From positions 186,001 to 250,000 of the forward strand of contig PLCN01000014.1 of assembly GCA_003134785.1 (NCBI GenBank): DNA of 64,000 nt. The letters are read 5' to 3'. This stretch comes from Spartobacteria bacterium (GTDB lineage Bacteria > Verrucomicrobiota > Verrucomicrobiia > Chthoniobacterales > UBA10450). Below are positions 601 to 55,373 of this stretch, in pieces (the stretch's first letter is position 1; every line of letters starts with the position of its first letter). The notes beneath the pieces were generated by a model. That model saw only the letters and a list, made by a program, of their open reading frames with translations. It did not search any database and was not told the DNA's origin. The position numbers and the translations under genes were made by a program.

Positions 601-813
601 GGGGCAGACTGGCTGTCCGTCGTGCGATTGTCGAGCGCAAGCAGGCTGCCGCGCGAGGACCGCTGCGCACGGCGCACCCTGCGCTCCGACACCGACGATC
701 AGGACATTAATGTTTTCTTCATGACTCAATCATCGGACAGGATGGAAAGAGGGTTTTAGAAATTGGAAAACCAATCCAGTGAATCCCGATCCGTCCGCGA
801 TTGATGGTGCGCG

Positions 814-1116
814 ATGCAGAGTTCGGTCTACACCTCCGTCGCCATCGCTCGGCAAGGTGACAAGGCAGTCGAAGGCCGTATCGTTCGAACGATGGGAGAC
901 CATACGGAAGATGATGCAGGTTGGCGAGAGCAATGCCGCCACCAACTCGACCGCGATGTCGTGACACGGATCCGGTATGGTTTTTGCCACGTCCACAAGC
1001 CGGTGCTCGATGACGTTCCCGTGCGCGCGTTTGCGACCATGGCGGAATATCGTCGCTGGTGTGACCAGGCGTTGCCCTCCTATCTCGGATATCGGCTCGC
1101 CGTAGGCGATCGATAA
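814..1116 (+). CDS. Small conserved-looking protein paired with the downstream nucleotidyltransferase-like gene
   Basis: About 100 aa. The N-terminal half is unremarkable and the start is uncertain (an internal ATG at 892 is possible). The C-terminal end, with TMAEYRRWCDQALPSYLGY, has the look of a short conserved tail that I associate with small Verrucomicrobia proteins, but I know no function. The stop lies 5 bp before the next ATG, so the two genes look co-transcribed. Such pairs with MNT-like nucleotidyltransferases are often toxin-antitoxin-like; that is inference only. Confidence 0.4.
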   Translation: MQSSVYTSVAIARQGDKAVEGRIVRTMGDHTEDDAGWREQCRHQLDRDVVTRIRYGFCHVHKPVLDDVPVRAFATMAEYRRWCDQALPSYLGYRLAVGDR

Positions 1117-1121
1117 AGTCC

Positions 1122-1601
1122 ATGCCGCAAAGCAAATTCACGCCGGCGCAGGCGGAAGAGTTGGCCACTGCCTTCGCCCGCGAGGAAGTTGATTATCTCT
1201 TTATCGGCAAGAGTGGCGCGATCCTTCTGGGGTACCCGGAAACGACGCAAGACGTAGACATTTTTCTGCCCCGTTCCCACGAAAATGCCGAACGAGTTCT
1301 GCGCGCGCTGCGGACGCTTGGGTTCGAGTTGGACGCAGCGTTAACTGTCTCGATTTTGACCGGCAGCGAGATCGTCCTTTTGAAATCAGGACCGTTCGCC
1401 CTGGATTTGATTCACGCGCCGGATGGCATCGAGAGTTTCGAGCTCGCCAAAAGCCGCTCCGTTCTGGAAGGGGGCCGCTTCCCAGTCGCATCGCTGGACG
1501 ACATCATCGCGAGCAAGCGCGCGACGGGACGGGAAAAGGACATTTACGATGTGCGCCGCCTTGAGCAGTTCAGAATTGAATATGTCCGGCGGAAGCAATA
1601 A
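1122..1601 (+). CDS. Nucleotidyltransferase-like (MNT/AbiEii-type fold) protein
   Basis: 159 aa. Residues 24-50 carry a helix, GKSGAILLGYPETTQDVD and IFL, which matches the G-(S/G)-x-A-x-x-(L)-x-G...T-x-D-(I/V)-D pattern of minimal nucleotidyltransferases that bind metal through the two Asp residues. A later Asp in ALDLIH (about residue 94) would be the third acidic residue. The C-terminus (VASLDDIIASKRATGREKD) is typical of these proteins. The family includes toxin or antitoxin components and tRNA/protein-modifying enzymes. The stop codon lies directly against the 3' end of the oppositely oriented tRNA-Val gene. Confidence 0.7.
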   Translation: MPQSKFTPAQAEELATAFAREEVDYLFIGKSGAILLGYPETTQDVDIFLPRSHENAERVLRALRTLGFELDAALTVSILTGSEIVLLKSGPFALDLIHAPDGIESFELAKSRSVLEGGRFPVASLDDIIASKRATGREKDIYDVRRLEQFRIEYVRRKQ

Positions 1602-1673
1602 TGCGCGATGCAGGGTTCGAACCTGCGACTTCTTGCGTGTGAAGCAAGCGCTCTACCACTGAGCTAATCGCGC
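1602..1673 (-). tRNA. tRNA-Val (anticodon CAC)
   Basis: Read on the minus strand, the sequence folds as a full cloverleaf. It has a 7-bp acceptor stem GCGCGAT/ATCGCGC with discriminator A, a D arm containing AGCTCAGTGGTAGAGC, an anticodon stem CTTGC/GCAAG with loop TTCACAC (anticodon CAC, reading GTG), and a T arm with GGTTCGAACCC. CCA is not encoded. The 3' end touches the stop codon of the convergent nucleotidyltransferase-like gene. Confidence 0.95.
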
Positions 1674-1978
1674 GAACGCGGGGAAGAGAACGGCGGCCAG
1701 CATAAAGTGCGAGCGTTCGCTTTCCAGAAAAAACTTAAGGTGACGAGCCTTCGCTGCGCCGGAGCAGCTACGGCTGCGCAGGCGAGTGACGAGTGACGTG
1801 TCAAGAAACCGTGAATCGAGCCACGGAAGATTCGGCGGTCATAGACCGTCGGCTACAGGGGCAGATTCACAGATCAATTCTTTGCTTTTGATCCGGGCCA
1901 TCCGCGTAATCCGCGGTTAACAGCTTCCCGGCAAAGCGCGTCGCTTGCCCTGCCATAGCAAGCATTCTATTAAGAAGC
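1674..1978. other. Intergenic stretch with repeat fragments, no gene seen
   Basis: About 305 bp without a convincing coding frame. It contains a solitary half of the GTAG-type palindrome (1833-1858). It also holds the short motif ATCCGCGTAATCCGCGGT (about 1901-1918), which recurs upstream of the glycyl-tRNA synthetase gene (about 2498-2515). Confidence 0.6.
1833..1858 (-). repeat. Solitary GTAG-type palindromic repeat (family A half element)
   Basis: The sequence CGGCGGTCATAGACCG followed by TCGGCTACAG is one arm of the element seen in full at 9964-10034, 32173-32264 and 55301-55373, with a single-base difference. Read on the minus strand it starts CTGTAGC, then the GGTCTATGACC palindrome. 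Confidence 0.75.
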
Positions 1979-2425
1979 ATGTCCGAACACAAAGTTACGC
2001 TTATCTGGCAACGCGGGGAGACGCCGTTCGAATATCAGAAATATCCGCGCGATCACACTTGGAAATTCGATTGCGGCCACGAGATGGACGCGACGGCCGC
2101 TCCGGCTTATCTCGGCAACCCGAAGTTCGTCGACCCGGAGGAAGCATTTGTCGCTTCGCTCTCGAGCTGCCACATGCTCACGTTCCTCGCCGTCGCCTGC
2201 AAAAAGAAGTTCGTGCTCGACGAATATTCCGACGACGCCGTTGGTCACATGGAGAAAAACGAGAACGGCAAGCTGGCGATCACGCGCGTTGAGTTGCATC
2301 CGAAGCTCAAGTTTTCCGGCGAAAAGCAACCGACCGAGCAGGAACTCGACGAGATGCACCACTTCGCGCACACCGAATGTTTCATCGCGAATTCGGTCAA
2401 GACGAAGGTCACGGTCGAGAAATAA
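1979..2425 (+). CDS. OsmC family peroxiredoxin-like protein
   Basis: 148 aa, the usual OsmC length. Two conserved cysteines are placed as in the family: Cys64 in the helix SSCHMLTFL and Cys134 in HTECFIANSV. In OsmC/Ohr proteins this pair reduces organic hydroperoxides with dihydrolipoyl or similar thiols, in the cytoplasm. The glycine/alanine-rich YLGNPKFVDPEEAFVASLS segment before Cys64 is typical of the OsmC sub-branch rather than Ohr. It stands alone; a small hairpin follows at 2431-2448. Confidence 0.88.
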   Translation: MSEHKVTLIWQRGETPFEYQKYPRDHTWKFDCGHEMDATAAPAYLGNPKFVDPEEAFVASLSSCHMLTFLAVACKKKFVLDEYSDDAVGHMEKNENGKLAITRVELHPKLKFSGEKQPTEQELDEMHHFAHTECFIANSVKTKVTVEK

Positions 2426-2430
2426 ATTAA

Positions 2431-2448
2431 CCCCGAATGCTTTCGGGG
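2431..2448 (+). terminator. Short hairpin after the OsmC gene
   Basis: CCCCGAA TGCT TTCGGGG forms a perfect 7-bp stem six bases after the OsmC stop codon. No T-tract follows, so it is at best a weak intrinsic terminator or a 3'-end stabiliser. Confidence 0.4.
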
Positions 2449-2531
2449 ATAACGCGGATGTTTTTCAGTCTGGAATTTTCGTTTCTTCATCCGTGGCATC
2501 CGCGTAATCCGCGGTCGCCCTCTTTGTCATC

Positions 2532-3893
2532 ATGAGCGACAAGACTGACCCGCAGCGGATGGAAAAAATCGTCAGCTTGTGCAAGCGACGGGGATTCATT
2601 TTCCAATCGAGCGAAATCTACGGCGGGCTGAATGGCTGCTGGGATTACGGCCCGCTCGGGGTCGAGCTGAAGAATAATCTCAAGCAATATTGGTGGCGAG
2701 TGATGGTGCGCGAGCGCGATGACGTGGTGGGAATGGACGGGTCGATCTTGACCCATCGCGCCGTGCTGAGGGCAAGCGGACACGAAGACACCTTCAGCGA
2801 TCCGATGGTGGATTGCCGGACCTGCAAAGCGCGGTTGCGCGCGGATCAACTACCGGAGAAAAGCGGCGTCAAACAATGTCCGAATTGCGGCGGCAAAGAT
2901 CTGACCGAAGCGCGTCCGTTCGATCTGATGTTTTCGACGCAGATGGGTGCGTCGGCTGATCCGGAATCGATTGCCTATTTGCGCCCTGAAACGGCGCAAT
3001 CGATCTTCGTCCAGTTCAAGAACGTGCTCGATACATCGCGGAAGAAGCTGCCGTTCGGTATCGCGCAGATCGGGAAGGCTTTTCGCAACGAAATCAATCC
3101 GCGCAATTTTACTTTCCGCTCGCGCGAGTTCGAGCAGATGGAACTCGAATATTTCTGCCGGCCGGAGCAGGGGATGGAGTTGCTCGAATACTGGAAGGAG
3201 GAGCGGGTAAAATTTTACGAGAACATCGGCATCCCGCGCGAGAAGCTTCACGTGCTAACCGTGCCAGACGCGGATCGCGCCTTTTATTCCAAGGGGACGT
3301 ACGACATCGAATATGACTTTCCATTCGGGATGCAGGAGCTGGAAGGCGTGGCGTATCGCACCGATTACGATTTGAAGCAGCACCAGGAGGCGAGCGGAAA
3401 GCCCCTGGATTATTTCGATGAGGAAACGAAGCAGCGTTTCATCCCGCACGTGGTCGAACCGAGCGCCGGTGTGGATCGGACGGTGCTCGCGCTTCTCTGC
3501 AACGCGTATGATGAAGAGACCGTCACGGACGAAAAGGGGAAGAGCGAGACGCGCATCGTCCTGCGTTTCCATCCGCGCATGGCGCCGATCAAGGTGGGCG
3601 TGTTTCCGCTGCTGAAAAACAACGAACAGCTTGTAGCCAAGGCGCGCGAGATCCAGGCGACGCTGCGCCCGCACATGAATGTTTTCTACGATGAGACCGG
3701 TGCGATTGGCCGGCGGTATCGGCGTCAAGATGAAGCAGGAACGCCATTCGGCATCACGGTCGATTTCGAGACGCTCGGCGAGAAGGATGCGACTCTGCTC
3801 GATACCGTCACGTTGCGGCATCGCGATTCGATGAAGCAGGAGCGAATAAAGATCAGCGAGCTTTTGACCGTTCTACTGCCGCAAGTGCAATGA
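2532..3893 (+). CDS. glyQS: Glycyl-tRNA synthetase (single-chain, class II)
   Basis: 453 aa, matching the eukaryote/Thermus-type alpha2 enzyme rather than the bacterial alpha2beta2 form. Visible parts: the N-terminal motif FIFQSSEIYGGLNGCWDYGP; a zinc-binding insertion with two Cys pairs (CRTC near 96 and CPNC near 116); motif 2 around FRNEINPRNFTFRSREFEQ; motif 3 near VVEPSAGVDRTVLALL; and a C-terminal anticodon-binding domain from about 345. It attaches glycine to tRNA-Gly in the cytoplasm. The ATG is supported by the start of homology a few residues in. No operon partner. Confidence 0.97.
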   Translation: MSDKTDPQRMEKIVSLCKRRGFIFQSSEIYGGLNGCWDYGPLGVELKNNLKQYWWRVMVRERDDVVGMDGSILTHRAVLRASGHEDTFSDPMVDCRTCKARLRADQLPEKSGVKQCPNCGGKDLTEARPFDLMFSTQMGASADPESIAYLRPETAQSIFVQFKNVLDTSRKKLPFGIAQIGKAFRNEINPRNFTFRSREFEQMELEYFCRPEQGMELLEYWKEERVKFYENIGIPREKLHVLTVPDADRAFYSKGTYDIEYDFPFGMQELEGVAYRTDYDLKQHQEASGKPLDYFDEETKQRFIPHVVEPSAGVDRTVLALLCNAYDEETVTDEKGKSETRIVLRFHPRMAPIKVGVFPLLKNNEQLVAKAREIQATLRPHMNVFYDETGAIGRRYRRQDEAGTPFGITVDFETLGEKDATLLDTVTLRHRDSMKQERIKISELLTVLLPQVQ

Positions 3894-4687: not shown

Positions 4688-4714
4688 CGGTGGCGCGCGT
4701 GGAAGGAGATCTCT

Positions 4715-4854
4715 GGGGAGCGCAGGTTGCCAGCCTGCCCGTCTCGGCAGCTTGCCGAGACGCGTGATTTAGCGCAACCCTGAAAACCCTTTGTGCGTCG
4801 CTCGGTGTTGCCGGCAAGCTGCCGGCAACTGCAGGCTGGCAGCCTGCGCTCCCC
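4715..4854. repeat. Palindromic repeat family C, copy 1
   Basis: A compound inverted repeat. The outer arms are GGGGAGCGCAGGTTGCCAGC and its inverse ending in GCGCTCCCC. Inside are two smaller hairpins, CGTCTCGGCAGCTTGCCGAGACG and GTTGCCGGCAAGCTGCCGGCAAC. A second copy at 13420-13561 has the same layout. It lies between the convergent YjbR and ftsY genes and could act as a bidirectional terminator. Confidence 0.85.
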
Positions 4855-4886
4855 GGAGAAAATCGCCCGCTCAGCGAAGCTCGACG

Positions 4887-9963: not shown

Positions 9964-10034
9964 CTGTAGCGGCGGTCTGTGACCGCCGATCGATCTGAGT
10001 GAAATCGCTCGGCGGTCATAGACCGCCGCTACAG
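9964..10034. repeat. GTAG-type palindromic repeat pair, family A
   Basis: Two facing arms, CTGTAGCGGCGGTCTGTGAC and its inverse ending GACCGCCGCTACAG, are separated by about 20 bp. Each arm holds its own palindrome (GGCGGTC-n-GACCGCC). The arrangement resembles paired REP elements (BIME). It lies between the permease and gamma-glutamyltransferase genes. Confidence 0.9.
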
Positions 10035-11806: not shown

Positions 11807-11827
11807 TCCGTGCCGGTTCTTGCGCGT

Positions 11828-11980
11828 GTCATCCCGAGCCGCGTAGACGGCGAGGGACCTCCCCATCGCAGGAAGGTCACGCAACGGAGAGATCGCGTCG
11901 TCCGATGGTCACGTCCAATGGAGCGCGAAAGCGATTAAGCACGTGCGAGGTCCCTCGCCGTCTGCGCGACTCGGGATGAC
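11828..11980. repeat. Family B inverted repeat (about 150 bp), copy 1
   Basis: Outer arms GTCATCCCGAGCCGCGTAGA...GGGACCTC and the inverse GAGGTCCCTCGCC...CTCGGGATGAC enclose a less conserved spacer of about 85 bp. Further copies are at 29465-29618, 33322-33480, 38283-38404 and 48987-49148. It lies between convergent genes here. Confidence 0.9.
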
Positions 11981-12000
11981 ATCGGTCTCGCGCTACGTGA

Positions 12001-13380: not shown

Positions 13381-13419
13381 AGGAATGGAGAGCCGCGAAA
13401 AGGATCATTGATCTCTTCG

Positions 13420-13561
13420 GGGGAGCGCAGGCTGCCAGCCTGCTCGTCTCGGCAGCCTGCCGAGACGCTTCGCCCGACTTCGCCTTGCTCGAAAATAATG
13501 CGCGCCATTCAATGTTGCCGGCAGGCTGCCGGCAACTGCAGGCTGGCAGCCTGCGCTCCCC
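13420..13561. repeat. Palindromic repeat family C, copy 2
   Basis: Same structure as 4715-4854: outer arms GGGGAGCGCAGGCTGCCAGC and the inverse ending GCGCTCCCC, with inner hairpins CTCGGCAGCCTGCCGAG and GTTGCCGGCAGGCTGCCGGC. It lies between the minus-strand osmoprotectant transporter genes and the aldehyde dehydrogenase gene. Confidence 0.85.
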
Positions 13562-13602
13562 AGAATTCGCGTCCGACCTGGATCTCAGCTCGCGCCGTGC
13601 AC

Positions 13603-28954: not shown

Positions 28955-29696
<742 letters not shown>

Positions 29697-32600
29697 ATGC
29701 CTTCGGACTCCTTCGTTCACCTCCACCTCCACACGGAATATTCCTTCCTGGATGGAGCGGTGCGAATGAAGGAGCTGATGAAAAAGGCGACGGAATTCGA
29801 GATGCCGGCGGTGGCGATCACCGACCACGGGAACCTGCACGGGGCGATCGAATTTTACCAGGAAGCGACGAAGAGCGGAATCAAACCCATCATCGGTTGC
29901 GAGGCGTACATGGCGCCGGGAGCGATCAAGGACCGGCCGAATAATCAACGCGACGCCGCTTATCATTTCACTCTGCTCGCGAAGGACGAGACCGGATATC
30001 GCAATCTCGTGAAGCTGATCTCTACCGCGCATCTGGACGGCTTCCATTACAAACCGCGGATCGACAAGGAACTGCTCGCGGCGCACTCAGCGGGATTGAT
30101 CGGTTTGAGCGGTTGCCTCAAAGGCGAAATCAACATGGCGATCCAGTCGGACAACCTCGCCAAGGCGCGGCGGAGCGTGGCGGAATTTCGCGACATCTTG
30201 AGCGCGGAAAATTTCTTTCTCGAGATGCATGACCACGGCATCGAGGCACAACACAAATGCAACCAGATGCTGCCACGTCTCGCGCGGGAATTCGGGCTCG
30301 GACTCGTCGCGGCCAACGATGTGCATTTTCTGGAGCGGAGCCATCACGAGACGCACGACGTGATGGTTTGCATCGGCACCGGCAAGATGGTGCAGGACGA
30401 AAGGCGGATGCGCTATCCGCCGGAGCTTTACTTCAAATCGGCGGATGAAATGCGCGCGCTCTTTCCGGATCAGCCCGAGGCGATCACGAACACACTCGAG
30501 ATTGCCGATCGCATTAATCTCGCGCTGGAGTTTGGCGTTTCGAAGTATCCTGAATACCCGGCGCCGGAAGGCAAGACGCGCGAGGTCTATTTGCAAGAGC
30601 TTTGTAACAAGGGACTGCACGATCGTTATGGCGAGCGCGCTGGGACCGACGCGGAATTGATTAAGCGGCTCGATTACGAACTCGGTGTGCTCGAAAAATC
30701 CGGATTCGTCAGTTACATTCTGATCGTCTGGGATTTCATCCATTTCGCGAAGCAGCGCGGAATTCCGGTGGGGCCAGGCCGCGGTTCCGCCGCCGGCTCG
30801 CTGGCGGCTTACGTGCTGGGAATTACCGACATCGATCCGTTGCAGTTCGGACTCATCTTCGAGCGTTTCTTGAATCCGGAGCGGGTCTCGCCGCCCGATA
30901 TCGACGTCGATTTTTGCAAGGATCGGCGCGGCGAAGTGCTCGAATATGTCCGTCAAAAATATGGCGAGCGCCGAGTCTCGCAGATTGTGACCTTCAACAA
31001 GATGAACGCGAAGAGCGCGGTGCGCGATGTCGGCCGGGTGATCGGACTTTCCTACGGTGAGGCCGATCGGCTTGCGCGCATGATCCCAGCCGGGCCGGGC
31101 CAGCAAAATATCACGCTTGCGGATTCAGCAGCGGCGAATCCGGAATTGCGCCGCGCGATCGATACGGAACCGGCGACCCGACAATTGTGGGACCACGCAA
31201 CATTGCTGGAAGGGCGCTCGCGCAACTTCGGAGTGCACGCGGCCGGTATCGTCATTGGCGATCGCGATTTGTCGGAATACGTGCCGCTCCGCCGCGATCC
31301 GAAAGAGAAGGAAGTCATCACGCAATATCCGATGGGACCGCTGAACGACCTCGGTTTGCTCAAGATGGATTTCCTTGGGCTGCGCACGCTCACGGTTCTG
31401 CACGACGCGACTGAGTTGATCCGGCAACGGATTCCGGATTTCTCGCTCGATCATATTCCGATGGATGACGCGGCCACGTTCGCTCTGCTGAACCGCGCCG
31501 AAACCATTGGTATCTTCCAGTTGGAAGGCGGCATGACCGGCTTCTGCAAACAATTCGATTTCAAATCGATCGACGACATCATCGCCTTGAGCGCGCTGTA
31601 TCGGCCGGGGCCGATGGATCTGATCCCGGATTACATCAAGCGGAAGAAAGGTCTCGCGAAGATCAAATACGAGCACCCGCTCCTCGAAGAGGTCTGCGCG
31701 GAGACGTACGGCGTCATGATTTACCAGGAGCAGGTCATGGCGGCGGCGAGCCGGCTGGGCGGCTACTCGTTAGGCCAGGCCGATTTGCTGCGGCGGGCGA
31801 TGGGGAAAAAGGATCGGGTGAAGATGGCGGAAGAGCGGGCCAATTTCATCGAGGGCTGCGCGCGCACGAACAAGATTGCGGAGAAAAAGGCGAACGCGAT
31901 TTTCGATCTGTTGGAGAAGTTTGCCGGCTACGGATTCAACAAGAGCCATAGCGCGGCTTACGGGCTGATCAGTTATCAGACCGCGTATTTGAAAGCGAAT
32001 TACCCGGTCGAATTCATGGCCGGTCTGTTGAGCAATGAGATCAACAACACAGACAAAATTTCGACCTTTGTCGGGGAATGCAAGCGAATGGGCATCCCGA
32101 TTCTGCCGCCAGACGTGAACCGGAGCGATTTGAAGTTCAGCCCGGAAGCGACTGCAGTCGCGGCCCCTTCTTCTGTAGCGGCGGTCTATGACCGCCGAGA
32201 GCATGGTGCCAACCAGAAGTTGCCACAGGAAGAAGGGGACGTCGGTCATAGACCGCCGCTACAGGGGGAGGCGAATGCAATTCGCTACGGGCTTGCCGCA
32301 ATCAAGAATGTCGGGCAGGGCGCGATGGAATCGGCGATTCGGGAGCGGGAAGCGAGGGGAGAATTCGCTTCGCTGGAAGATTTTTGCCGCCGGGTCGATT
32401 CGCGCATCGCGAACCGCAAGATCCTCGAAAGCCTGGTGAAATGCGGCGCGTTCGATTTCCTCGGACGCGAGCGAGCGGAGTTGTTTGCTTGCATCGATGA
32501 ATCGCTCGCCGCGGCGACGGAGTCGCATAAAGATCGGGCCAGCGGACAAGTCTCGTTGTTCGACGACTTGCCGCCGCCCGCCTCGAAACCGAGCGCGCGT

Positions 32601-33299
32601 CGAGTGATTCCATGGACCGAGCACGAGAAGATGTCGTACGAAAAAGAGCTGCTCGGGTTTTATGTCACCGGGCATCCACTCGATGCGTATGCCGCACTGC
32701 TCGCCGACGGGAAATATCAAACCATTGCATCGCTCAATGAGCTGCCGGACCGCGCGTCGTTTCGGATCGCCGGCGCCATCGTGCAGGTGGACAAGAAGTT
32801 CACCAAAAAAGAAGGGAAACCATTTGCGGTGGTGTGGCTCGAGGATCTGAGTGCGACACTAGAAGTGGTCCTTTGGAATGAAGTCTACATGAAAGTCGCG
32901 GACGCTCTCGTGCTGGGCCGCGTCATTGCAGTCCAGGGTACGCTTGATCGGCGGGATGATGCTCTCCGCGCGGTGGCGCAAAAGGCAAAGGTCTTGACGG
33001 CAGCGGATGGTCAGGCGCGTTCGCCTAACGAGACAAATGGCAACGGAAGCAAGGAAAGTGAATCGCCTTTGGTGCTCCGCTTCTCGGCGACGGCGAACGC
33101 GGAGGAGCTGCGGCAGGTGCAATCTTTTCTGGCGACGTCGCCGGGCTCATGTCCGGTGAAACTAATGTTCTGCCGGGCCGATGGAGAATCGTTGGCGATC
33201 GAGGCTGGCGTGACCTTTCGCGTCAACCTAACGCCGGAGTTGCGCGACAAACTCGCTCCGTGGTTGCAGCGGGAGGAGATGGCGGTCGAGGCAAGCTAG
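29697..33299 (+). CDS. dnaE: DNA polymerase III alpha subunit
   Basis: 1200 aa. N-terminal PHP domain (HLHLHTEYSFLDGA at 8-21), then the polymerase core with GPGRGSAAGSLAAYVLG and the catalytic PDIDVDF (about 397-403), fingers and HhH regions (GYGFNKSHSAAYGL), and the C-terminal OB domain (about 1000-1090). Replicative polymerase. A GTAG-type palindrome is inserted in frame at 32173-32264 (residues about 826-856), between KFSPE and AIRYGLAAIKNVG, adding some 31 extra residues in a region where relatives have none. The gene otherwise seems intact. Confidence 0.97.
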   Translation: MPSDSFVHLHLHTEYSFLDGAVRMKELMKKATEFEMPAVAITDHGNLHGAIEFYQEATKSGIKPIIGCEAYMAPGAIKDRPNNQRDAAYHFTLLAKDETGYRNLVKLISTAHLDGFHYKPRIDKELLAAHSAGLIGLSGCLKGEINMAIQSDNLAKARRSVAEFRDILSAENFFLEMHDHGIEAQHKCNQMLPRLAREFGLGLVAANDVHFLERSHHETHDVMVCIGTGKMVQDERRMRYPPELYFKSADEMRALFPDQPEAITNTLEIADRINLALEFGVSKYPEYPAPEGKTREVYLQELCNKGLHDRYGERAGTDAELIKRLDYELGVLEKSGFVSYILIVWDFIHFAKQRGIPVGPGRGSAAGSLAAYVLGITDIDPLQFGLIFERFLNPERVSPPDIDVDFCKDRRGEVLEYVRQKYGERRVSQIVTFNKMNAKSAVRDVGRVIGLSYGEADRLARMIPAGPGQQNITLADSAAANPELRRAIDTEPATRQLWDHATLLEGRSRNFGVHAAGIVIGDRDLSEYVPLRRDPKEKEVITQYPMGPLNDLGLLKMDFLGLRTLTVLHDATELIRQRIPDFSLDHIPMDDAATFALLNRAETIGIFQLEGGMTGFCKQFDFKSIDDIIALSALYRPGPMDLIPDYIKRKKGLAKIKYEHPLLEEVCAETYGVMIYQEQVMAAASRLGGYSLGQADLLRRAMGKKDRVKMAEERANFIEGCARTNKIAEKKANAIFDLLEKFAGYGFNKSHSAAYGLISYQTAYLKANYPVEFMAGLLSNEINNTDKISTFVGECKRMGIPILPPDVNRSDLKFSPEATAVAAPSSVAAVYDRREHGANQKLPQEEGDVGHRPPLQGEANAIRYGLAAIKNVGQGAMESAIREREARGEFASLEDFCRRVDSRIANRKILESLVKCGAFDFLGRERAELFACIDESLAAATESHKDRASGQVSLFDDLPPPASKPSARRVIPWTEHEKMSYEKELLGFYVTGHPLDAYAALLADGKYQTIASLNELPDRASFRIAGAIVQVDKKFTKKEGKPFAVVWLEDLSATLEVVLWNEVYMKVADALVLGRVIAVQGTLDRRDDALRAVAQKAKVLTAADGQARSPNETNGNGSKESESPLVLRFSATANAEELRQVQSFLATSPGSCPVKLMFCRADGESLAIEAGVTFRVNLTPELRDKLAPWLQREEMAVEAS
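32173..32264. repeat. GTAG-type palindromic repeat (family A) inside dnaE
   Basis: CTGTAGCGGCGGTCTATGAC and its inverse ending GACCGCCGCTACAG, with a 40-bp spacer, lie in the dnaE reading frame. The encoded peptide includes SVAAVYDRREHGANQ, the same first residues as the translated copy at 55301-55373. The element is in frame with no stop on the coding strand. Confidence 0.93.
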
Positions 33300-38229: not shown

Positions 38230-38282
38230 TCGGCGTTGGGAACGCCGGGAGCGCTCGTCTAGTGGGTATCGAATGAATGCGT

Positions 38283-38404
38283 GTCATCCCGAGCCGCGCA
38301 GACGGCGAGGGACCTCACAACTGTTATCGATCACGCTGGCTACCGCGCGTGTGAATGAATGTACGAGTGGGAGGTCCCTCGTCGTCTGCGCGACTCGGGA
38401 TGAC
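38283..38404. repeat. Family B inverted repeat, copy 4
   Basis: Arms GTCATCCCGAGCCGCGCAGA and the inverse GCGACTCGGGATGAC; the spacer is shorter (about 50 bp) than in the other copies. Lies between the transglutaminase-like gene and recF. Confidence 0.88.
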
Positions 38405-38442
38405 AGGCGTTTGAGTTTGAATAACTAATTCGACGCTTATCT

Positions 38443-44800: not shown

Positions 44801-45232
44801 CTAGAACGCGATGCTTACAATCTCTCCCTGATACGGCCACTGCTCTGGCCCTTCGCACAAGCCCGCTCGCACCGGATTCATCCGGACATATTCCCACTTC
44901 TCCGAATAACTTTCGGCGCTGCGCAAGACGTGATCAAAGAATCCTTCCTGCCAATGCGGCTTCTGAGTTCCGAGCCCAAGCAATTGCTTTCCAATGACGG
45001 TTTTCAATGCCTTGACCCATTTAGGCAACGTTATTCCTTCTGGCGGGAACGCGACGAACAGGTGCACGTGATCCGGCATTATGACGTACCGGCCAACGGC
45101 TATATCGTATTCTTGTGCACCTTCGCAAAAGGAACGGAAGGTTTCATGGATGTCAGCGCGCGCGAGTGAATGCAATCGCTCGTGACTGTTGAACGTAACA
45201 AAATAGAAGGGCCGAACTGATGAGAAGAGCAA
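44801..45232 (-). CDS. rayT: REP-associated tyrosine transposase (RAYT, TnpA_REP)
   Basis: 143 aa. The Y1-type HUH nuclease motif is DHVHLFV with His55 and His57 (part of MPDHVHLF), and the tyrosine helix is ESYSEKWEYVRMNPVRAGL (candidates Tyr109 or Tyr115). This is the IS200-derived, domesticated family that acts on REP palindromes carrying GTAG next to a hairpin. No terminal inverted repeats typical of an IS surround it; instead four REP-like palindromes flank it. It looks intact. Confidence 0.9.
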   Translation of the reverse strand: MLFSSVRPFYFVTFNSHERLHSLARADIHETFRSFCEGAQEYDIAVGRYVIMPDHVHLFVAFPPEGITLPKWVKALKTVIGKQLLGLGTQKPHWQEGFFDHVLRSAESYSEKWEYVRMNPVRAGLCEGPEQWPYQGEIVSIAF

Positions 45233-45262
45233 TTCAAGTCGTCGCGGACGTTTCGGAAAGCG

Positions 45263-45293
45263 CCGCTGTAGTTGCGGCGCTCGGTCGGCGCGT
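45263..45293. repeat. REP-like palindrome near RAYT (right 1)
   Basis: GCCGCTGTAGTTGCGGCGCT followed by CGGTCGGCGC: GTAG followed by imperfect hairpin arms. Confidence 0.5.
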
Positions 45294-45323
45294 TCTAGGG
45301 TGTGGTCATGACATCATGCGCAG

Positions 45324-48905: not shown

Positions 48906-49253
48906 GCGACAGAGGGAAGACGGTCATGCCGGGCCACTTCATGCGCAAATCGCAAGTGTGAACCAAGCGATGCCACCGTTCGCGATGTCATCCCGAGCCG
49001 CGCAGACGGCGAGGGACCTCTCAGTTACTCGACTGGTCACTCAAACCAGAATAGGCGTGGCGTCAGCGCCGATGTTGTGCGGCGTAACGTTCAAGACGCG
49101 CAAAATGCTATTGCGAGGTCCCTCGCCGTCTGCGCGGCTCGGGATGACCCGCTCTTAGTGGTACCGTTATCTTGTCGCCAAATCTGCGCTCCGGGGCGCG
49201 CCACCCGCTTCGGGTATTGCTCTTTACCTGCGTAGAAATAGATTACCGCCCTG
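48906..49253. other. Intergenic region upstream of tamB
   Basis: About 350 bp between divergent genes. It contains a family B repeat (48987-49148) and little else that I can support. No clear promoter was found. Confidence 0.6.
48987..49148. repeat. Family B inverted repeat, copy 5
   Basis: Arms GTCATCCCGAGCCGCGCAGA and the inverse GTCTGCGCGGCTCGGGATGAC. Each arm reaches a GGGACCTC or GAGGTCCC inner end, with a spacer of about 90 bp. Nearly identical to copies 1 and 2. Confidence 0.9.
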
Positions 49254-55300: not shown

Positions 55301-55373
55301 CTGTAGCGGCGGTCTATGACCGCCGAATCGAATTCACCACCGGCTCTCCGGCGGTCATAGACCGCCGCTACAG
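55301..55373. repeat. GTAG-type palindromic repeat pair, family A
   Basis: CTGTAGCGGCGGTCTATGAC and its inverse ending GACCGCCGCTACAG, the closest match to the element inside dnaE. It lies just after the Omp85 stop codon. Confidence 0.92.

Follow-up and report, generated by a model that had tools for sequence, protein, structure and literature searches.

How does an essential replicative polymerase come to carry a palindromic repeat within its reading frame, and is this a single case? The question is raised by dnaE in a 64,000-nucleotide stretch of the genome of a soil member of the Spartobacteria (G000:C9:186001-250000; 4.39 Mb in 25 contigs), referred to here as the window. A preliminary description, made from sequence alone, had placed a palindromic repeat within dnaE at 32173-32264, without a stop or frameshift, and had reported similar copies near 9964 and 55301. 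All of this held: the coordinates were exact, the dnaE frame was open over all 1200 amino acids with zero internal stops, and both further copies exist and lie between genes.

An in-frame REPIN in dnaE

The features of the locus and the two related copies in the window are as follows.

29697..33299, plus strand: dnaE, replicative DNA polymerase III alpha, 1200 amino acids (Pfam domains, structural relatives)
32145..32279, plus strand: whole variable loop, residues 817-861 (E817-A861, 45 residues), between strands 815-819 and 859-863 (79 family loops and AlphaFold model)
32173..32264, plus strand: family A REPIN, in frame, CTGTAGCGGCGGTCTATGACCGCCG...CGTCGGTCATAGACCGCCGCTACAG (CTGTAG...CTACAG), residues 826-856 (sequence, genome matches)
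32175..32197, plus strand: left REP, GTAG head and hairpin CGGCGGTC-TAT-GACCGCCG, translated VAAVYDRR (sequence, motif counts)
32240..32262, minus strand: right REP, inverted, with the CTAC head at its outer end, translated GHRPPLQ (sequence)
32164..32173, plus strand: left arm CCCCTTCTTC of an extra inverted repeat running from the flank to the REPIN spacer (sequence)
32229..32238, plus strand: right arm GAAGAAGGGG of that repeat, within the REPIN spacer, complementing 32164-32173 (sequence)
9964..10034, no strand assigned: intergenic family A REPIN copy, no spanning open frame (genome matches)
55301..55373, no strand assigned: intergenic family A REPIN copy (genome matches)

Each half of the REPIN consists of a GTAG head, an 8-bp GC-rich stem and a TAT loop, the halves being mutually inverted, and the 10-base inverted repeat between flank and spacer is additional to it. 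The 23-base REP motif had 180 genome matches at one mismatch or less while the reversed control had 0, and the 92-base element used as a query had 126 genome matches; the element is therefore not a chance palindrome. There were 31 inverted REP pairs among the sampled family A copies, and 43 of 44 sampled copies lay outside gene bodies. The element thus meets the criteria for a REP, namely a GT(A/G)G head followed by a GC-rich imperfect palindrome, high copy number and, for family A, a mostly extragenic location, as well as that for a REPIN, two inverted REPs forming a single hairpin unit. Only 20% of family A REPIN frames were stop-free, and 2 of 186 also had a length divisible by three, which is consistent with just one of the 44 sampled copies being in a gene body.

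The DnaE protein has the Pfam domain order PHP, DNA_pol3_alpha, finger, HHH_6 and OB-fold, and its closest solved structures are those of Pol III alpha (2hpi, 7pu7 and 5fku). The REPIN splits HHH_6 (residues 799-929). No intact spare dnaE, and no second replicative polymerase gene, was found in the genome, where the sole other DnaE-like protein is of a second type and 34% identical. In Taq Pol III alpha (2hpi), 4 residues lie between the aligned flanking positions, compared with 45 in the dnaE product. An AlphaFold model built from 24 sequences had a mean pLDDT of 83, with strands 815-819 and 859-863 on either side of the insert placed confidently and residues 821-857 below 50, at about 30 in the insert. 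The model thus predicts that the insert prolongs the tip of a beta-hairpin of the HHH_6 region as a disordered segment. The preliminary description had proposed checking for absence from close relatives and for exposure on a structure model; the insert is missing from some close relatives (G003, G006), and what the model predicts is disorder rather than exposure as such. The DNA of the loop folds strongly (z = -7.9, against a median of -0.13 for dnaE control windows).

Other classes of element were also considered. A classical MITE would show a target-site duplication, and inspection of the sequence revealed no direct repeat at 32173/32264. The CGTC end tag of a Rickettsia palindromic element is lacking, the head being GTAG. 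An intein or translational bypass, in which the product of the insert is removed and its frame is free, was set aside on the family-wide survey described below, in which 65 of 65 inserts were in frame and stop-free. The same observation suggests that the insert residues are translated, an inference from sequence in which the product itself was not examined.

A RAYT gene is linked to family A in the same genome. A Y1_Tnp (RAYT) ORF of 163 amino acids (G000:C3:211405-211893; L034/L221) has family A REPs on both sides, and so fulfils the criterion that the RAYT gene be bracketed by inverted copies of the same REPs. RAYTs were likewise flanked by family A in G012 and by family W (GTGGGAG...) in G007, and no RAYT flanked by family B was seen in G019. 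While the flanking is shown, movement of the REPIN by a RAYT is inferred, as the link is by association only.

The window contains further repeats and a further transposase. A second RAYT-like Y1_Tnp ORF of 170 codons (44804-45313, minus strand) has a different GTAG-type repeat on either side (CTGTAGCCACGTCGCTCTGTCGACGTG and, inverted, CGCCTCGACAGAGCGAGGCGGCTACAG) and is apparently another REP-flanked transposase, likely of a separate family. Four intergenic inverted-repeat copies of the GTCATCCCGAGCCGCG family were found (11824-11989, 29461-29627, 38279-38413 and 48983-49157), with one copy of this family just upstream of dnaE, and a C-type sequence related to it fills the DnaE loop in G031 and G072. 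Two copies of another long palindromic repeat family (GCAGGCTGCCAGCCTGC; 4710-4859 and 13416-13565) are 88-92% alike and lie outside long open frames.

Loop contents and their turnover across the family

The DnaE loop was read in 79 sequences from the same bacterial family. Fourteen loops were short (5-11 residues) and the other 65 held inserts of 13-80 residues. The preliminary description had the element adding about 31 residues, which held in part: the element itself corresponds to residues 826-856, but the protein has gained about 34-40 residues, since its loop has 45 residues and those of short-loop relatives have 5-11. Insert types were assigned by hand and grouped by DNA into families A (GTAGCGGCGGTC), W (GTGGGAGGGACC), B and B2 (GTAGCCGG/GTAGCCGC) and C (GTCATCCCGAGC), along with one GGACGTGC type, other GTAG/GTAACACAG palindromes and nine unassigned loops (type U), which were treated as missing in conservative counts. 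At least six unrelated palindromic repeat families fill the loop. Taken as a set, the loops were far more structured at the DNA level than windows from the same genes (median z of -3.2 against -0.13, p = 1.5e-17). Outside the loop, no insertion of 6 or more residues was found over approximately the first 1020 residues of DnaE, the C-terminus being uncovered in many rows.

Families W and B were multi-copy where they are carried in DnaE and were absent from the short-loop genomes G012 and G017; family B was also absent from G000. A strict link between a short loop and a lack of repeats can be rejected, as G012 has a short loop despite its numerous family A REPs and a RAYT locus of that family. 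In the most sampled genus, g5, there was no short loop among those read. The start positions of inserts varied by a few to about 30 bases, and nested or compound inserts were present in G005, G065 and G100.

Two metagenome contigs terminate at the DnaE loop (L278, G069:C463; L273, G025:C155), suggesting that the assembler encountered variation between strains or a repeat at this point. At the same DnaE loop, an insert of approximately 60 residues unlike these repeats is present in three records (L089, L090 and L107), which are labelled Prosthecobacter, Chthoniobacteraceae and Spartobacteria.

The contents of the loop have changed repeatedly. When loop types were placed on a dnaE phylogeny from which the loop itself had been left out (85 rows, IQ-TREE quick search), at least 31 changes of type were needed with unassigned rows excluded, 28 after branches under 95 were collapsed, and 22 when B and B2 counted as one type and only branches with full support were retained. 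Shuffled labels needed about 45 changes, and the smaller observed number therefore points to some inheritance of insert type as well. Near relatives with different loops included G078 (W) and G084 (B), G058 (W) and G059 and G060 (both short), and G066 (W) and G034 (B2). The dnaE insert in the window is one of many invasions of this loop by unrelated families.

In ten pairs sharing an inherited insert, pooled dN/dS was 0.53 for the loop and 0.063 for the flanks, from few counts and with pairs that share taxa. This shows relaxed constraint rather than strict neutrality, and a value below 1 from few sites leaves room for mild selection. Sharing an insert type did not go with greater identity in the flanking 90 bases to the left and right of the loop (difference of +0.0009 between genera, with p = 0.33; p = 0.86 overall).

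Inserts in other core genes

DnaE is not the only core protein affected: similar inserts occur in further core genes, which rules out a one-off or DnaE-only event. We examined 23 distinct B-type elements in the relative G019, where 19 were in open frames and 15 were in genes that could be recognised (by Pfam or as DnaE). Their hosts were UvrD, YchF, AlaRS, RimO, MiaA, DnaE, PurL (two), a 2-oxoacid dehydrogenase protein (two), and ACS-GNAT, HDAC-like, ABC-F-like ATPase, lipoate ligase-like and Rieske oxygenase-like proteins. The proposition that REP families always avoid genes is therefore true for family A in G000 (1/44) and false for family B in G019 (19/23). As family B is mostly intragenic in G019, a genome in which no B-flanked RAYT was seen, gene bodies may keep fossil elements there, where the frame must hold.

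In AlaRS, one spot had 34 residues when filled and 26 when short, and was filled in about seven of 30 genomes. In IspG, a single loop was occupied by W, C-type or NDEARMTNDE-type repeats, or by others, and was short in other relatives. W repeats were found within IspG in G000 and within MetH in G007. The overall pattern is thus that several core proteins have permissive loops. The IspG (GcpE) gene of G000 (L326, G000:C25:498123-502170) has its in-frame W-type repeat at 2001-2054, within the loop that several repeat families have also refilled in relatives. A helicase-like protein in G016 (L305, G016:C13; ORF 670-3597, minus strand) apparently contains repeats of both family A and family B, along with a W-like peptide, all in one frame.

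Explanations and known systems

We favour a reading in which REPINs are inserted at random by RAYTs and filtered by tolerance, with continued turnover, and consider it likely (probability of roughly 0.72). A REPIN, as an inverted pair of GTAG-headed REPs, would be moved as single-stranded DNA by the RAYT (Y1) transposase. One copy would have landed in dnaE at a beta-hairpin tip in the HHH_6 region. It would owe its survival to a length and frame that left the gene uninterrupted and to added residues that formed a disordered, tolerated loop. The insert would be translated and probably functionless for the host; its neutrality is inferred. The DnaE loop would be one of few permissive sites in core proteins, where several unrelated repeat families keep inserting and in-frame deletion and decay balance them, a balance that is likewise inferred. 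Such repeated refilling would lead close relatives to hold different elements. Several observations count against this reading. When an old element is replaced, it usually leaves no trace, an outcome not predicted by insertion alone, so frequent deletion must be assumed; in addition, none of the g5 loops read is short, a target duplication is not visible and no B-flanked RAYT was seen in G019.

The alternative that remains possible and is not excluded is targeted refilling, in which the loop is a preferred landing site and new REPs replace old ones in place, attracted by the resident hairpin in replicating single-stranded DNA or by a nearby CTAC (ATTCGCTACGG of IRYG). Many independent events at one DnaE position and in single loops of IspG and AlaRS support it, as do the nested or compound cases (G005, G065 and G100) and clean swaps in closely related genomes (W in G078 but B in G084, for example). 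Against it, the same loops are used by families without GTAG heads (C-type and NDEARMTNDE-type), and start positions are spread by a few to about 30 bases. A bolder version, which is conceivable, holds that a few core-protein loops are true landing pads, with hairpin DNA in the loop or the replicating strand attracting elements. If so, unrelated selfish repeats would compete for protected niches in essential genes, old and new elements would be exchanged cleanly, and indel decay would be slowed by the frame requirement.

Inserts might instead be under selection for an effect on the polymerase, such as a change in fidelity or in the binding of partners. It has been speculated in print that REPs change the activity of the replication and repair genes they occupy (PMC3733652), and a loop dN/dS below 1 and the presence of inserts in all g5 loops read are in line with such selection, but this explanation seems unlikely given that loop contents are unrelated sequences of 13 to 80 residues, several relatives have no insert, constraint is relaxed about 9-fold, the insert is predicted to be disordered and unrelated enzymes are affected in the same manner. 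Homologous exchange of dnaE segments between species could spread loops among soil relatives able to swap DNA, and the same types do recur in distant genera. Local flank identity gave this no support, as same-type pairs showed no excess (p = 0.33 between genera; p = 0.86 overall), and we regard it as very unlikely. An assembly artefact from collapsed repeats is the least likely of all: metagenome assemblies do break at repeats, and contigs of G069 and G025 end at the loop, but 65 in-frame, stop-free inserts with dnaE on both sides come from many separate assemblies. A chimera is unlikely because so many independently assembled genomes have in-frame inserts at the same position.

REPs are generally regarded as extragenic. 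Under random insertion filtered by tolerance, an essential and highly constrained polymerase tolerates a hypervariable loop of selfish DNA that differs among close relatives, and PurL, AlaRS, IspG, UvrD, MiaA and RimO have the same kind of insert. Some essential proteins are thus recurring landing sites for mobile DNA, and linker length in such proteins is unreliable as an evolutionary or functional signal. The family offers a natural replicate experiment in how mobile DNA supplies new protein segments and in the way RAYT elements select their sites and depart from them. The same system bears on whether gene bodies shield fossil repeats from deletion.

In-frame REPs in genes are already known, including one in a Rickettsia DnaE. 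Di Nocera 2013 (PMC3733652) reported intragenic GTAG and CGTC REPs, many in replication and repair genes, the verrucomicrobium O. terrae having the most intragenic GTAG REPs. The same paper describes a REP within the DnaE of R. conorii and notes that two Xanthomonas species have different REPs at approximately one position in recB. The inserts described here are similar in their GTAG or GTGG heads, in being in-frame dimers encoding 20-30 residues and in occurring in replication and repair genes. Whereas that study catalogued single genomes, the present analysis traced one loop through 79 sequences of a family; the insert type changed at least 22-31 times, at least six repeat families were involved, and IspG and AlaRS showed similar behaviour. 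We found no account in that study of one loop repeatedly refilled across a family, and the open-licence literature, which leaves most subscription papers outside the search, had nothing on Udaeobacter and palindromic repeats.

The repeats also resemble published REPIN/RAYT systems (PMC3116915; PMC2817692) in the GT(A/G)G head, palindrome, inverted doublets and REP-flanked RAYT. Family W can be likened to the P. fluorescens REP GTGGGAGGGGGCTTGCCCCCGAT, and the RAYT loci match published RAYT loci (PMC2817692) and REPINs (PMC3116915). In those studies REPs were described as extragenic, whereas copies here are in frame within core genes. Rickettsia RPEs, which the preliminary description had cited as the precedent, are similarly palindromic, in frame and tolerated in essential proteins, although the intragenic GTAG REPs of PMC3733652 make the precedent broader. 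R. conorii RPE sequences terminate in CGTC (PMC3733652), whereas the repeats here have GTAG or GTGG heads and RAYTs flanked by the same repeats, a distinction drawn without sequence comparison with RPEs. The view that this is an in-frame palindrome in a replicative polymerase, distinct from the Rickettsia elements, is supported, as it is GTAG-headed rather than CGTC-tagged and is RAYT-associated.
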